From NCBI GenBank assembly GCA_017430325.1, contig JAFRNE010000028.1, positions 1 to 64,000 on the forward strand: a DNA stretch of 64,000 nt, read 5' to 3'. Origin of the DNA: Eubacterium sp. (GTDB lineage: Bacteria > Bacillota > Clostridia > Lachnospirales > Lachnospiraceae). This document shows positions 27,917 to 60,969 of the stretch, piece after piece. Positions within the stretch are counted from its first letter, which is position 1. The number at the start of each line of letters is the position of its first letter. Made by a program: the position numbers and the translations under genes. The notes beneath the pieces were generated by a model that worked only from the letters and a program-made list of their open reading frames with translations, did no database searches and was not told where the DNA came from.

Positions 27917-27989
27917 TGGGCTATCGCCAAATGGTAAGGCACTGGACTCTGACTCCAGCATTTTCAAGGTTCGAATCCTTGTAGCCCAG
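27917..27989 (+). tRNA. tRNA-Gln (anticodon CTG)
   Basis: Acceptor TGGGCTA/TAGCCCA and anticodon stem CTGGA/TCCAG around loop CTCTGAC give anticodon CTG, which reads CAG. The gatCAB operon in this window would supply the Gln by amidating Glu-tRNA(Gln). CCA is not encoded. Confidence 0.97.
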
Positions 27990-27993
27990 CTTC

Positions 27994-50728: not shown

Positions 50729-50935
50729 TGTAAAATATCAATCGTAAATATGTAATTTCAAGGGCATATAGCAGTAGTATAAAGCAATATGTTTTCATTG
50801 AAGAAAAAGCATATTTATGATAAAATTGATATGTTGGGTTTATGGTTAAATAAAGTATTTTTGGGGACGTATTTCCGGTCGATACGGATGACTTGGCCGG
50901 ATTAATAAATATAGAGAAACCTGGAGGGGTTGCAG

Positions 50936-52372
50936 ATGAAAAAAATAGCTTATATTGCTTCAGAATGTGTTCCTTTTATCAAGACAGGAGGTCTTGCCGA
51001 CGTAGTTGGAACGCTCCCTAAGAAGTTTAATAGAAAAGAGTATGATGTCAGGATCATCATGCCAAACTATATGTGTCTTCCTGATAAATACAGGAACAAG
51101 ATGAAATACATCACTCATTTCCAGATGGACATCGGCTGGAAGCAGCAGTATGTCGGAGTTATGTACCTGGAGTATGAAGGCGTTCCGGTATATTTTATCG
51201 ATAATGAGTATTACTTCAACGGATTCAATATCTATGGTGATGTTAAGTGGGATATCGAAAAGTTCTGCTATTTCAGTAAGGCGGCTCTTTCAATCCTTCC
51301 AAGCATCGGCTTCCAGCCTGATATAGTTCATTGTCATGACTGGCAGTCAGGTATGGTTCCTGTATACCTCAAGACACTTTTTGCAAGCAATCCTTTCTAC
51401 AGCAATATGAAGTCTGTTATGACTATTCATAACCTTCAGTTCCAGGGAAGATGGGATATTAAGACACTTATGGAGTATTCAGGACTTCCGGGATATCTCT
51501 TCACACCTGACAAGCTTGAGATCGATAAGGACGGCAGTATGCTGAAGGGCGGACTTGTTTACGCTGATAAGATCTCTACAGTTTCAAATACCTATGCACA
51601 GGAGATCCAGACACCATACTACGGCGAAGGACTTGACGGACTTCTTCGTGCAAGATGGCAGTCACTCTGGGGTATCGTAAACGGTATCGATTATCAGGTA
51701 TGGGATCCGAATACAGACAGAAAGATATTTAAGAATTACAACATTGATAATTATAAGACAGATAAGATTACAAATAAGCTTGCTCTTCAGAGAGAGCTTG
51801 GACTTCCTGAGGATCCGAATGCATATATGATCGGTCTTGTATCAAGACTTACAGATCAGAAGGGTCTCGACCTTATCGACAGGATCATGAATGATATCAT
51901 GACCGATGGTACACAGCTTGTTGTTCTCGGAACCGGAGACAGACGTTATGAGGATATGTTCAGATATTATCAGGGTATCCATCCAGCAAAGATATCTGCA
52001 AATATCTATTTCAGTGATGATCTGTCTCACAGGATCTATGCATCCTGCGATTCTATGCTTGTTCCTTCAAGATTTGAGCCTTGCGGACTTACACAGCTTA
52101 TGGCTCTCCGTTATGGTACACTTCCTATCGTCAGAGAAACAGGCGGTCTGAAGGATACTGTAATACCTTACAACGAGTATGATGGATCGGGCACAGGCTT
52201 CTCATTCGCCAACTATGATGCATTTGATCTTCTGAATACAATTAACTACTCAAAGAAAGTATTCTTCGATGACAAGAATGCATGGGCAGAGCTTCAGAAG
52301 CATGCTATGGAACAGAATTACAGCTGGGATACTTCTGCTAAGATCTATGAGCAGATGTACAATGAACTGTAG
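50936..52372 (+). CDS. glgA: Glycogen synthase (ADP-glucose)
   Basis: A 478-residue GT5 enzyme that extends alpha-1,4-glucan from ADP-glucose. It has the N-terminal substrate loop 'IKTGGLADVVGTLPK', 'VHCHDWQSGMVPVYLK' near residue 135, and the C-terminal 'SRFEPCGLTQLMALRYG' and 'ETGGLKDTV' of GT-B fold synthases. The ATG at 50936 has GGAGGGG 6 bp upstream, better than the TTG at 50930. No other glycogen genes are adjacent. The 50729-50929 spacer shows no clear promoter. Confidence 0.95.
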   Translation: MKKIAYIASECVPFIKTGGLADVVGTLPKKFNRKEYDVRIIMPNYMCLPDKYRNKMKYITHFQMDIGWKQQYVGVMYLEYEGVPVYFIDNEYYFNGFNIYGDVKWDIEKFCYFSKAALSILPSIGFQPDIVHCHDWQSGMVPVYLKTLFASNPFYSNMKSVMTIHNLQFQGRWDIKTLMEYSGLPGYLFTPDKLEIDKDGSMLKGGLVYADKISTVSNTYAQEIQTPYYGEGLDGLLRARWQSLWGIVNGIDYQVWDPNTDRKIFKNYNIDNYKTDKITNKLALQRELGLPEDPNAYMIGLVSRLTDQKGLDLIDRIMNDIMTDGTQLVVLGTGDRRYEDMFRYYQGIHPAKISANIYFSDDLSHRIYASCDSMLVPSRFEPCGLTQLMALRYGTLPIVRETGGLKDTVIPYNEYDGSGTGFSFANYDAFDLLNTINYSKKVFFDDKNAWAELQKHAMEQNYSWDTSAKIYEQMYNEL

Positions 52373-54318: not shown

Positions 54319-54681
54319 ATGAAGTTTTGTATTTTTTGTGGAAAACAGTTAAATGATGACGATCAGTTCTGCATGTTTTGCGGAAAGCCGCAGGGAACAC
54401 AGAATAAACCTGCAGAACAGGAAAATAATCCGACTGAAAAAAATGCTGCACAGGAAAGTGTTCAGAGTGATAATTCGCAGAAGGCGCCTCAGACACAGGA
54501 TGGTGTTGTGCAGGATAAACCTGAAGAAAATAAGGATGCTCAGAATTCTCAAGCTGAGAGTAATCCAGTAATAAATGGTCAGTCACAAAATGGTCAGATG
54601 CCAAATAGTCAGAATATGCAGATGAACCAGACTGCCCAATACAATGCACAGATGAATTATGCTCAGATGCCATATGATTAG
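54319..54681 (+). CDS. Zinc-ribbon segment of interrupted surface-protein gene
   Basis: A 120-residue open segment. C4, C7, C18 and C21 form a zinc ribbon ('FCIFCGK', 'FCMFCGK') followed by a Gln/Asn-rich linker. It ends at TAG (54679-54681), at a place where the repeat that follows has CAG (Gln). The next open segment continues in the same frame without a gap. If translation stops here, the product is a soluble zinc-ribbon protein with no membrane anchor. GAGG lies 9 bp upstream of the ATG. Confidence 0.75.
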   Translation: MKFCIFCGKQLNDDDQFCMFCGKPQGTQNKPAEQENNPTEKNAAQESVQSDNSQKAPQTQDGVVQDKPEENKDAQNSQAESNPVINGQSQNGQMPNSQNMQMNQTAQYNAQMNYAQMPYD

Positions 54682-54978
54682 AATATGATGAACGGTCAGA
54701 TGCCATACAATCAGAATATGATGAACGGTCAGATGCCATACAATCAGAATATGATGAACGGCCAGATGCCGTATGGTCAGAATATGATGAATGGTCAGAT
54801 GCCGTATGGTCAGAATATGATGAATGGTCAGATGCCATATAATCAGAATATGATGAATGGTCAGGTGCCATACGGTCAGAATATGATGAACGGCCAGATG
54901 CCGTATGGTCAGAATATGATGAATGGTCAGATGCCGTATAATCAGAATATGATGAATGGTCAGATGCCATATGGTCAG
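54682..54978 (+). repeat. Nine tandem 33 bp coding repeats
   Basis: Exactly nine 33 bp units (297 bp) encode N-M-M-N-G-Q-M-P-Y-(N/G)-Q. The unit bordering the first TAG encodes Y-D-stop where others have Y-N-Q. Slippage could change copy number. Confidence 0.95.
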
Positions 54979-56493
54979 AACATGCAGATGAACCAGGCTG
55001 CTCAATACAATATGCAGATGCAGAACGGCCAGATGCCATATGGTCAGGTTCAGAATCCGCAGATGAGTGGTGGTACGAATAAAAAGAATAACGTTCAAAA
55101 GCCGCCTAAAAAAGAAAAGAAACAGGGTGGTAAGAAGAAAAAGATCATCATCATTTCTTCTATAGCAGCAGCTCTTTTAATCGCCTGTGCGGTTGTATTT
55201 TTCCTTGGTTTCAAGAAACCGACAGAGAAATATCTGAAGGATTATTTTACAGGACCGGATCCAAGTAATGAGAATGTTGCAGGCGTACCGGAGTATTACC
55301 ATTTATGGTACTATATTCAGCATCTGACAGGTGAAAGTGGTGTTTACTGCAAGATCACAGATGTTGAGATAGTAAAATCGGAATACAGCTTTTTCAGTGG
55401 TAAGGCATCTGTCATCCTCACAACGGAAGATGAGTACATGACAAGAAAGGTATATGCCGACCTGGAGCTTTCGGGTATTGCCGGCAGCTGGAGTATAGAT
55501 AAGGTGGAGCTGGCACCGCTTGATAATAAAGATAATAAGATAATAGCCTTAAATGAAGGATTCATAAAGCGTGTTGTCGAATATAATCTCGGTTCTAACA
55601 ATAAATACGGACTTGATGGATATGACAAAGACAGGGTACTGGCTTTTGAAACCAATTCAGTCGGCAGGCTTAGTGATGACGAGATTGATTATTTCACTAT
55701 AAAATATGATATCTCCAATACAACAAGTGAAGGTGTCTATGATGGATACATTGTGATATATGGTGGTATTGATGTTGATCCTGATTACAGAGATACTGAC
55801 TATGAGTTGGATCTTTCGACTGATTCAGTAAATGTTGACTTCAAGTTGTTTGACAGCAATGAGCCCGGAAATAACACCGGTAACAATGATGGAAATAACA
55901 CCGGTAACAATGATGGAAATAACACCGGAAACAATACCGGTAACAATGATGGTAACAACACCGGAAACAATACCGGCAGCAATGATGGAAACAACAGCGG
56001 AAATAATACCGGTAACAACGGTACCGAAAATCCTATCGCCGGACTTCCGCCTATCACAGATGATAAGATATATCTCTATTCATGGAATGATGAATTCGGT
56101 ACTCTGGTAGAGGCATTTAAGAAAAAGTATCCTGAGTACAGTGATCTGGTGGAGTTTGTGAATCTGGGAATGAGTGGAAACTCACAGGATTATTTTGATG
56201 CTGTTTTATCAAGGATCACGCATCACACACAGCCGCTTTCCATGGTAATGTATGATGGTGAATGTGCTTCTCAGCTTTTTGACAGCAGATTCATTTCTAT
56301 GGATAAACTTGGCGTGGAACAGTATTATAAGGATGCATACGAATATACAAAGACTGATGCGACCTTTAACGGTGAGCTTAAGGGTATGGCTCCGTATGTA
56401 TGTCCTATGGGCTTTATTTACAGAAAGGATATTGCTGAGCAGGTTCTTGGAACAAGTGATCCGGCAGAGGTCTACAAATATATTTATACATAG
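54685..56493 (+). CDS. Middle segment: repeats, membrane anchor, half solute-binding domain
   Basis: A 602-residue segment between the two TAG codons. It begins with the 11-residue Met/Gln repeats. A basic stretch follows, then one transmembrane helix (about residues 155-178, 'IIIISSIAAALLIACAVVFF'), a strand-rich domain of about 200 residues, a G-N-N-T/D linker, and the first half of a family-1 solute-binding domain ('KIYLYSWNDEFGTLVEAF', 'GMAPYVCPMGFIYRKDI'). No ribosome site precedes its first ATG, so independent translation is unlikely. The order implies cytosolic N terminus and extracellular C terminus. Confidence 0.7.
   Translation: MMNGQMPYNQNMMNGQMPYNQNMMNGQMPYGQNMMNGQMPYGQNMMNGQMPYNQNMMNGQVPYGQNMMNGQMPYGQNMMNGQMPYNQNMMNGQMPYGQNMQMNQAAQYNMQMQNGQMPYGQVQNPQMSGGTNKKNNVQKPPKKEKKQGGKKKKIIIISSIAAALLIACAVVFFLGFKKPTEKYLKDYFTGPDPSNENVAGVPEYYHLWYYIQHLTGESGVYCKITDVEIVKSEYSFFSGKASVILTTEDEYMTRKVYADLELSGIAGSWSIDKVELAPLDNKDNKIIALNEGFIKRVVEYNLGSNNKYGLDGYDKDRVLAFETNSVGRLSDDEIDYFTIKYDISNTTSEGVYDGYIVIYGGIDVDPDYRDTDYELDLSTDSVNVDFKLFDSNEPGNNTGNNDGNNTGNNDGNNTGNNTGNNDGNNTGNNTGSNDGNNSGNNTGNNGTENPIAGLPPITDDKIYLYSWNDEFGTLVEAFKKKYPEYSDLVEFVNLGMSGNSQDYFDAVLSRITHHTQPLSMVMYDGECASQLFDSRFISMDKLGVEQYYKDAYEYTKTDATFNGELKGMAPYVCPMGFIYRKDIAEQVLGTSDPAEVYKYIYT
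55867..56022 (+). repeat. Thirteen G-N-N-x linker repeats
   Basis: Thirteen 12 bp units encode G-N-N-(T/D/S/G), a flexible linker between the two extracellular parts of the protein. Confidence 0.9.
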
Positions 56494-56496
56494 GAT

Positions 56497-57060
56497 ATGT
56501 TTGAAGATACAGCAGCAAAGATGAAGGACAACGGATATTATATGCTGTCTACAAAGGAAGATCTTGCAAGAGGCTACGGCGGCACTATCTGGGAAGGAAC
56601 TGTTCCCGATGCATGTGTTCAGCAGGCAGACAGATTCGCAGCTAATGGTTATCTGGCTTATAGTGAAGAGTCCGCGTGGTCAGCAGCATGGTATGAAGGA
56701 TTTGATTCCAATGTATTTGGATATTTCGGCGGCGACTGGTTTGTAAACTATACAATGCCGGATTATACCACAAAGGAATGGTGCTTCTGTCCGGGACCGG
56801 AGTACCATCACTGGGGCGGCGCGTATGCTGGAGTGACTGAAACATGTCCGAATAAAGGACTTGCAGCTCTTATACTTGTAACTATCTGCTGTGATGAGGA
56901 TATCCAGTATGATTATGCGGTAAAGAATCACTACACTCCAAATAACAGGAGTGCAGCGTCAAAGCTTATTTCATCAGGAGAGATCAGTTATGACTCAAAT
57001 GTTATGAAAACGCCTATGGCGGAATATAACGATGAAATAGCTGCAAATACAGAAAGATAA
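56497..57060 (+). CDS. C-terminal half of the solute-binding domain
   Basis: A 187-residue segment in the same frame as the two preceding ones, beginning four bases after the second TAG. It holds the C-terminal lobe of a family-1 extracellular solute-binding protein: 'WYEGFDSNVFGYFGGDWFVNY' spacing and 'HHWGGAYAGVTETCPNKG', regions that close over a sugar-like ligand. It lacks a signal peptide and a ribosome site, so alone it cannot be exported. It makes sense only as part of the longer protein. yicC starts 12 bp after its stop. Confidence 0.7.
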   Translation: MFEDTAAKMKDNGYYMLSTKEDLARGYGGTIWEGTVPDACVQQADRFAANGYLAYSEESAWSAAWYEGFDSNVFGYFGGDWFVNYTMPDYTTKEWCFCPGPEYHHWGGAYAGVTETCPNKGLAALILVTICCDEDIQYDYAVKNHYTPNNRSAASKLISSGEISYDSNVMKTPMAEYNDEIAANTER

Positions 57061-57072
57061 CAGGAGAAGAAA

Positions 57073-57951
57073 ATGATCAGGAGCATGACAGGCTTCGGAA
57101 GAAGCGAATTGTTAGACGAAAACAAGAAGATCGTTATTGAGATCAAGTCGGTTAATCACAGATATTCCGACATCAGCATCAAGATGCCACGCAAATTCAA
57201 CCAGTTTGAGCCGGCGATGAGAAATGTCCTTAAGGACTACATCATAAGAGGCAAGGTTGATGTATTTGTAACCTACGAGGATTTTGCAAAATCAAACCTT
57301 ATGGTAAAATACAATAAAGAGATCGCTTCGGAGTATATCAATTATCTCGAGCAGATGAGAGATGATTTCGGACTTAAGGAGGAGCTTAAGCCTACAGTTG
57401 TGGCTGATTTCCCTGAGGTATTTTCTCTTGAAGAAAAGGCTGATATAGATGTGAGCCTTTATGAGGATATCGAGAAGACCTTGAGGGAGGCCGGAGAGAG
57501 CTTCTCAAATGCGAGAGCCATGGAAGGTGAAAACCTGAAGAACAATCTTCTTATCAAGCTTGATGAGATGTCTGCAATGGTAAACGAGATCGAGAGAATG
57601 TCACCTGAGCTTATCGCGGCATATAAGGCAAAGCTTTCCGAGAAGGTTAAGGAGCTTATCGAGTCCGGTGCGGTTGATGAGCAGAGGATAGCAGCAGAGG
57701 TTGTTATCTATTCGGATAAGATCTGTGTTGATGAAGAGATAGTAAGACTTAAGAGTCATATCGATGCTGTCAGAAAGATCCTGAATGACGGCGGTGATGT
57801 GGGAAGAAAGCTTGATTTCATAGTTCAGGAAATGAACAGAGAGTCAAATACGATTCTTTCAAAGTCGGATTCTCTTGCTGTGACAGATATCGGTATTGAA
57901 ATGAAGACCTGTATCGAGAAGATACGTGAGCAGATTCAGAACTTAGAGTAG
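57073..57951 (+). CDS. YicC/YloC family endoribonuclease
   Basis: A 292-residue protein of the YicC/YloC family. The start 'IRSMTGFGRSEL' and 'EIKSVNHRYSDISIKMPRKF' and the C-terminal 'KLDFIVQEMNRESNTILSKS' are the family signatures. E. coli YicC is an endoribonuclease affecting small-RNA turnover. In Firmicutes it precedes gmk, rpoZ and priA, as here, at the head of a housekeeping operon. AGGAGA is upstream; gmk starts 11 bp downstream. Confidence 0.93.
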   Translation: MIRSMTGFGRSELLDENKKIVIEIKSVNHRYSDISIKMPRKFNQFEPAMRNVLKDYIIRGKVDVFVTYEDFAKSNLMVKYNKEIASEYINYLEQMRDDFGLKEELKPTVVADFPEVFSLEEKADIDVSLYEDIEKTLREAGESFSNARAMEGENLKNNLLIKLDEMSAMVNEIERMSPELIAAYKAKLSEKVKELIESGAVDEQRIAAEVVIYSDKICVDEEIVRLKSHIDAVRKILNDGGDVGRKLDFIVQEMNRESNTILSKSDSLAVTDIGIEMKTCIEKIREQIQNLE

Positions 57952-58866: not shown

Positions 58867-58884
58867 GATTATTTTATGACATGT

Positions 58885-58917
58885 CAGGCGGGCTTATCAG
58901 TCCGCCTGTATTGTTTT
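58885..58917 (+). terminator. Hairpin between rpoZ and priA
   Basis: A perfect 7 bp GC-rich stem (58885-58891 with 58902-58908) followed by TATTGTTTT. It could attenuate transcription into priA. Confidence 0.55.
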
Positions 58918-58926
58918 GGAGACGAC

Positions 58927-60969
58927 ATGGAAGGAAAATATGCTGACGTCATAATCGACATCTCGCATGAGAAGGTCGACAGGGTATTTCAATACAAAAT
59001 ACCGGACGGTTTGAAAGAAAAAGTGAATATCGGAACGCCGGTAACCATACCTTTCGGTCGTGGAAATACAAGAAGACAGGGCTATGTTGTCGGTATATCG
59101 GACGAGGCACAGTGGGAAGAGGATAAGATCAAGGAAATACTTGAGGTTCCTCCTAAGCAGCTGTCCATAGAAAGCAGGCTGATCGAGCTTGCCGGATGGA
59201 TGAAGGAGCATTATGGTTCCACTATGATAGCGGCCCTTAAGACTGTAACTCCTGTAAAGGAGAAGGTTAGGAAGGTCAGCAGGAAGGACAATGATTCCGA
59301 AGAAAAAGAGGACACTCCGGATAATGATATGGCTTCGGAACCGATAGAGTTAAACAGTGAACAGAAGGAGATAGTTGAGGAGTTCTGCGACGCCTTCGAA
59401 ACTGGTGTCAGAGGAAAATACCTCCTGCATGGTGTTACCGGCAGCGGAAAGACCGAAGTTTATATCGAACTTGTAAAAGAGGTCGTAAGCTGCGGAAAGT
59501 CAGCTATAGTACTTATACCTGAGATATCACTTACACTTCAGACGGTTGAAAGATTTGAAGCGGCCTTCGGAGACAGAATATCGATAATCAATTCGAGACT
59601 CAGTAAGGGTGAAAAATATACCGAGTTTGAAAGAGCAAGAAAGGGAGAAACGGATCTTATCATAGGACCGAGATCGGCTCTCTTTGCACCGTTTTCAAAT
59701 CTCGGACTTATAATAATAGATGAAGAGCATGATACGGCCTATAAGAGTGAGACTACTCCGAAATATCATGCGAGAGAAACAGCGATGAAACGCGCTGAAC
59801 TGGAGGATGCGGCGGTTGTTCTCGGTTCTGCGACACCATCGATAGAAAGCTATCACAGAGCTCTCTCGGGAGAATATAAGCTTTGGAGCCTTCCGGACAG
59901 AGTTATGGGAAGAGCTCTTGCTAAGACAAGCATAGTTGATCTTAGAGAAGAGCTGAAGAGTGGTAACAGAAGCATCATAAGCAGAGAACTTGCCGAAAGA
60001 ATGGAGCAGGCATTTGCTGCGGGCGAGCAGGTGATGCTATTTATAAACAGACGAGGCTACAGCAGCTTTGTTTCCTGCAGAAGCTGCGGACATGTTATAA
60101 AATGTCCGAAATGTGATGTAACCCTGGCGCTGCATGGAAAGAGCAGGCTCATGTGTCACTACTGCGGTTATCAGGCTGAGATGCCGGATAAATGCCCGGC
60201 CTGTTCATCAAAGCTGATCGGAGGCTATGGAACGGGAACCGAGAAGGTTGAAGCGGCGGTTAAGAGTATATTTCCGAATGTGAGAACTCTCAGGATGGAT
60301 AAGGATACCACCACGAGAAAGGATTCACATCAGAGGATAATCGACAGCTTCAAGAAGCATAAGGCGGACTGCCTGATAGGAACCCAGATGATAGTCAAGG
60401 GACATGATTTCGGAAATGTGACTGTTGTGGGAATAGTGCTTGCGGATCTTAGCCTCTTTGATAATGATTACACATCGGCGGAAAGAACCTTTGATCTTTT
60501 GACCCAGGCGGCTGGACGCGCCGGAAGAGGTGAGAAGCCGGGATATGTTGTTATCCAGACCTATCAGCCGGAGCATTATACCATAAGTTCGGCGGCTGAG
60601 CAGGATTATAACAGCTTCTATCAGCAGGAAATATCCTACAGAAGGCTGATGAAGTATCCGCCTGCATCTCATATGCTGGGAATACTTATTACCTCTAAGG
60701 ACGAAGAGCTGGCTGACAGATTGGCAGCTTTGATCGCCGATAAGGTGAGGGAGATACTTTCGGAATGTAAGGAAGCGGTTGTTACGGGACCGGGACCTGC
60801 CTATATCGGAAGGATCAATGAAAGCTACAGAAGAGTAATCTATGCACGTGATGAAAAATATGATAAACTTACCATGGTCATCGATAAGATCGATGCGGTT
60901 TTCGGTAAGCTTTCCGCTGATACCGATGCTGAGATCCAGTTCGATATGGACCCGATGAACGTGGTGTAG
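58927..60969 (+). CDS. priA: Primosomal helicase PriA
   Basis: A 680-residue 3'-5' helicase that restarts collapsed replication forks. The N-terminal DNA-binding part ('YADVIIDISHEKVDRVFQY') is followed by a helicase core with Walker A 'GVTGSGKTEVYIEL' near residue 172 and 'LIIIDEEHDTAYK' near 263. The zinc-binding insertion carries four Cys pairs ('CRSCGH', 'CPKCD', 'CHYCG', 'CPACS'), and motif VI is 'QAAGRAGRG'. The ATG at 58927 has GGAG 5 bp upstream; the frame opening at 58876 spans the hairpin and is rejected. Confidence 0.95.
   Translation: MEGKYADVIIDISHEKVDRVFQYKIPDGLKEKVNIGTPVTIPFGRGNTRRQGYVVGISDEAQWEEDKIKEILEVPPKQLSIESRLIELAGWMKEHYGSTMIAALKTVTPVKEKVRKVSRKDNDSEEKEDTPDNDMASEPIELNSEQKEIVEEFCDAFETGVRGKYLLHGVTGSGKTEVYIELVKEVVSCGKSAIVLIPEISLTLQTVERFEAAFGDRISIINSRLSKGEKYTEFERARKGETDLIIGPRSALFAPFSNLGLIIIDEEHDTAYKSETTPKYHARETAMKRAELEDAAVVLGSATPSIESYHRALSGEYKLWSLPDRVMGRALAKTSIVDLREELKSGNRSIISRELAERMEQAFAAGEQVMLFINRRGYSSFVSCRSCGHVIKCPKCDVTLALHGKSRLMCHYCGYQAEMPDKCPACSSKLIGGYGTGTEKVEAAVKSIFPNVRTLRMDKDTTTRKDSHQRIIDSFKKHKADCLIGTQMIVKGHDFGNVTVVGIVLADLSLFDNDYTSAERTFDLLTQAAGRAGRGEKPGYVVIQTYQPEHYTISSAAEQDYNSFYQQEISYRRLMKYPPASHMLGILITSKDEELADRLAALIADKVREILSECKEAVVTGPGPAYIGRINESYRRVIYARDEKYDKLTMVIDKIDAVFGKLSADTDAEIQFDMDPMNVV

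Follow-up and report, generated by a model that had tools for sequence, protein, structure and literature searches.

A gene for a predicted membrane-anchored zinc-ribbon protein in Eubacterium sp. was probably inactivated recently by two amber mutations

UAG-to-Gln recoded crAss-like phages have suppressor tRNAs together with a large number of recoded genes. Solute-binding proteins of the SBP_bac_8 type are free lipoproteins found beside ABC permeases. Belinky et al. 2021 (PMC7918605) describe in-frame stops in bacterial genes as common and short-lived, with dN/dS below 1, and carbohydrate-transport-type genes are frequent among their cases. They argue that purifying selection keeps many of these stops in place, and note that a considerable share of the apparent ones may be artefactual.

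In this study, we analysed a gene with two in-frame TAG codons in a window of Eubacterium sp. DNA (the whole stretch analysed, 64,000 nucleotides of contig JAFRNE010000028.1). Compared with the nonsense pseudogenes and stop polymorphisms of Belinky et al. (PMC7918605), the likeness lies in point nonsense codons as the sole damage to the frame, a dN/dS below 1 and a short life; the differences are two stops in one gene and a single assembly. The likeness to the SBP_bac_8 proteins and to the cellobiose-binding protein 8bfy lies in the C-terminal domain of this family, but here that domain ends a zinc-ribbon protein with an internal transmembrane helix. With the recoded phages, the locus has in common an in-frame TAG at a Gln codon, at one of its two sites, whereas neither suppressor tRNAs nor many recoded genes were seen here.

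Translation of the forward strand from 54319 to 57060 gave a single frame without a frameshift, 913 codons long when sense and amber codons are counted. TAG alone interrupts it, at 54679-54681 (residue 121, site 1) and 56491-56493 (residue 725, site 2), and the frame is closed by TAA at 57058-57060. The segments contain 120, 603, and 188 sense codons, respectively. The features of the locus are as follows.

54319..54681, + strand: segment 1, zinc ribbon (residues 3-24; Zn_Ribbon_1, 29.8 bits vs cut-off 25) and a Gln/Asn-rich stretch, up to the first TAG
54667..55053, + strand: tract of 33-bp repeats rich in Gln/Asn/Met (NMMNGQMPYxQ)
54679..54681, + strand: site 1, first in-frame TAG, inside the first 33-bp repeat copy (by translation and repeat comparison)
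54682..56493, + strand: segment 2, with the remaining repeats, a Lys-rich stretch and the transmembrane helix, then a conserved extracytoplasmic domain, an Asn/Gly linker and the N-terminal half of the solute-binding-like domain (domain names partly via orthologs)
56491..56493, + strand: site 2, second in-frame TAG, where relatives have a conserved Trp
56494..57060, + strand: segment 3, C-terminal half of the solute-binding-like domain, to the TAA
52462..54237, + strand: upstream gene, presumably NFACT/RqcH-like, 91% identical in C6A11
57073..57951, + strand: downstream gene, presumably yicC-like, ending in TAG, 97% identical in C6A11
27917..27990, + strand: tRNA-Gln(CUG), an ordinary isoacceptor; tRNA-Gln(TTG) lies elsewhere in the genome

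The names of the two flanking genes were assigned from general knowledge. The integrity of coding frames was examined in 464 kb of the genome, consisting of 400 kb taken as stretches and the window. In this sample, this gene was the only place in which a TAG divides two segments of one frame, each with a coding score, and the pattern is thus more than chance.

Homologs were searched in 61 genomes of the genus. Lachnospiraceae bacterium C6A11 (G061:C17, JNKY01000019.1) has a stop-free open frame of 918 aa with 67% identity over residues 1-912. The neighbourhood and domain order are the same as in the window; the C6A11 ortholog differs by having no internal stop and another repeat tract. The locus is syntenic: the same NFACT/RqcH-like and yicC-like genes flank it, and next come gmk (96%) and the gene at 58876 (87%). 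Relative to C6A11, the start with its ribosome-binding region (GAGGTATTTATATGAAGTTTTG) is kept, as is a promoter-like site upstream. Homologs in two further genomes, G084 and G014, are partial, both beginning at contig edges, and are open over the part present. Since the C6A11 ortholog is a single open frame, the three ORFs are fragments of one gene. An earlier note on this DNA had described one frame broken only by TAG at 54679 and 56491, without a frameshift, and both the translation and the open 918-aa ortholog bear this out.

The SBP_bac_8 profile (PF13416) matched the G084 ortholog with 38.1 bits against a gathering cut-off of 27 bits, and the window and C6A11 proteins scored below the cut-off. 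In a structure search, the C-terminal domain of the C6A11 protein matched the cellobiose-binding protein 8bfy_A (E = 1.3e-7). The second TAG appears to lie inside this domain, as the earlier note had placed it, with the halves falling in segments 2 and 3. The ancestral protein would have had about 915 residues and a membrane anchor, with a predicted topology. Its order would have been a cytosolic zinc ribbon, variable Gln/Asn-rich repeats, a transmembrane helix, an extracytoplasmic domain, an Asn/Gly linker and the solute-binding-protein-like domain.

The identity to the C6A11 ortholog is 67%, compared to 87-97% for the flanking genes. The solute-binding-like domain is nearer to G084 than to C6A11, and yicC shows the reverse. 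This divergence relative to the neighbours may reflect fast evolution or local recombination, and would be expected of a variable surface protein. The 33-bp tract at 54667-55053 varies in length and sequence between species and is a likely site of copy-number change.

More distant members of the family with internal stops were also observed. The stop is TAG in L066 (G017:C58, 2564-3541) and L067 (G024:C290, 855-2006), TGA in L087 (G034:C104, 1501-2502), and TAA in a member from G011. The TAG of the G017 member sits where its relative L087 appears to have Trp. None of these internal stops is shared with the gene in the window, and the single stops of L066, L067 and L087 are at positions unrelated to its two TAGs.

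We then compared the residues at the two sites. At site 1, most other copies of the 33-bp repeat have CAG where the first copy has TAG; that neighbouring repeats carry CAG had been stated before, and it was seen in nearly all of them. Judged from the sister repeats, the codon was most naturally CAG before a C>T change, in a tract that aligns unreliably between species. Site 2 had been suggested to be CAG as well, but all four relatives aligned there have Trp (C6A11, G084, G014, and the G027:C27 copy at 815901), so that guess was wrong. The context in the two nearest relatives is YKYI[Y/C]TWDLFEDTAAK, which points to a single G>A change from TGG to TAG. Each TAG is thus one transition away from its inferred ancestral codon. 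None of the relatives compared has a stop at either site, with the comparison at site 1 resting on the sister repeats. These results suggest that the two ambers replace different amino acids, Gln and Trp.

The selection acting on the region after the second stop was examined by dN/dS. The window and G084 gave a value of 0.16, the two intact relatives C6A11 and G084 one of 0.15, and the bootstrap interval of the difference (-0.09 to 0.12) spans zero. The low dN/dS after stop 2 suggests that the stops are young relative to the species divergence, or that a product is still made. Among positions conserved in three relatives, the window has changed at 14 of 94 after stop 2, compared to 3 of 85 in the half before it (Fisher p ~0.01, uncorrected). 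The count for C6A11 was 7 of 87, and its difference from the window was not significant (p = 0.17). Several of the window's changes beyond stop 2 alter more than one base and are conservative. The region after stop 2 may be beginning to decay, and the excess of changes is weak.

The gene was probably inactivated recently by double nonsense mutation. This reading is preferred because of the intact syntenic ortholog, the Trp and CAG ancestral codons, the standard code and the low dN/dS, and it is the best fit among the three options that the earlier note had raised. Two independent transitions would have produced the ambers, at site 1 from a Gln codon within the repeats and at site 2 from a Trp codon midway through the binding-like domain. 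Translation would now most likely end after 120 residues, ahead of the membrane helix. Restart at the ATG two codons past the first TAG is possible, and the resulting membrane protein would contain one half of the binding-like domain. Since such a product would be without the other half, the native protein would be lost in this case as well. The second mutation plausibly followed once the first had removed selection. Both the loss of function and this order of events are our reading of the sequence comparison.

It is unlikely that either TAG, or both, arose through an error of sequencing or assembly, with the gene intact in the living strain. The near-perfect coding quality elsewhere in the gene is compatible with an error, site 1 falls among tandem repeat copies, the kind of sequence for which a consensus of short reads is least dependable, and artefactual in-frame stops are a recognised possibility in PMC7918605. 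However, two independent substitution errors in one gene would be needed, and the 464 kb sampled from the same assembly held no other TAG-split frame. Both changes are also clean transitions without a frameshift, and site 2 lies in unique sequence.

It is quite unlikely that the stops lower dosage while function is kept, by low-level expression through leaky UAG readthrough or restart at an ATG. An ATG lies two codons past each TAG (54685 and 56497), but neither is preceded by a ribosome-binding site, and ATG is frequent in the repeats anyway. The dN/dS of about 0.16 after stop 2 is as for a gene still translated, and the retention of many bacterial in-frame stops under purifying selection is argued in PMC7918605. 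However, neither stop is common to any relative and nothing shows retention here, and for a product made across both UAGs two low probabilities would multiply. As a programmed UAG readthrough gene, the locus was rejected, no relative keeping a stop at either position.

It is very unlikely that the ambers act as tolerated switches. In that case, trace amounts of full-length or split protein would be made by low readthrough or restart, the stops would regulate a variable surface protein by dosage or in a phase-like manner, and the first stop could be removed by slippage of the 33-bp repeats.

The decoding of UAG was examined in the genome. The release factors RF1 (an open frame of 363 codons) and RF2 (351) are both present, one with RF1-type sequence including GNGGQ and the other with the SPF motif of RF2. 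TAG ends 54 of the 293 gene-like ORFs in the 464 kb sampled (~18%), and three TAG-ending genes lie nearby (50930-52372, 57073-57951, and 58876-60969). No tRNA with a CUA anticodon, which the earlier note had proposed to look for as a suppressor, was found among the 34 tRNA genes detected, in an assembly whose gaps may hide some, such as rRNA-linked tRNAs. Only the CTG and TTG genes matched in a search for a suppressor derived from tRNA-Gln. The TIGR02367 profile for PylS had no match in the genome, and pyrrolysine at the ambers was ruled out with PylS absent. This genome uses the standard code, with UAG as an ordinary stop. The suggestion that tRNA-Gln(CUG) reads UAG as a decoding system is not supported, with Gln and Trp at the two sites, RF1 present and TAG in regular use as a stop. 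With Gln at one site and Trp at the other, it is less likely that one suppressor tRNA would restore both residues. Genome-wide or dedicated recoding of UAG as Gln, Trp or pyrrolysine has a negligible probability: two ambers do lie within one otherwise open gene, but the residues in relatives and sister repeats differ between the sites, RF1 is present with neither a CUA tRNA nor PylS found in the genome searched, TAG is the terminal stop of 18% of the sampled genes, and no other gene in the 464 kb is split by TAG.

Inactivation of the nonsense type is an already known kind of event in bacteria. On the best reading, the finding is an ordinary one, and any readthrough or restart is incidental. 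Automated calls of a 602-aa or a 187-aa protein at this locus would mislead annotation. The locus is a clean example of a double amber mutation in which the ancestral residues can be identified, and one lineage of the Lachnospiraceae loses a candidate for UAG recoding.
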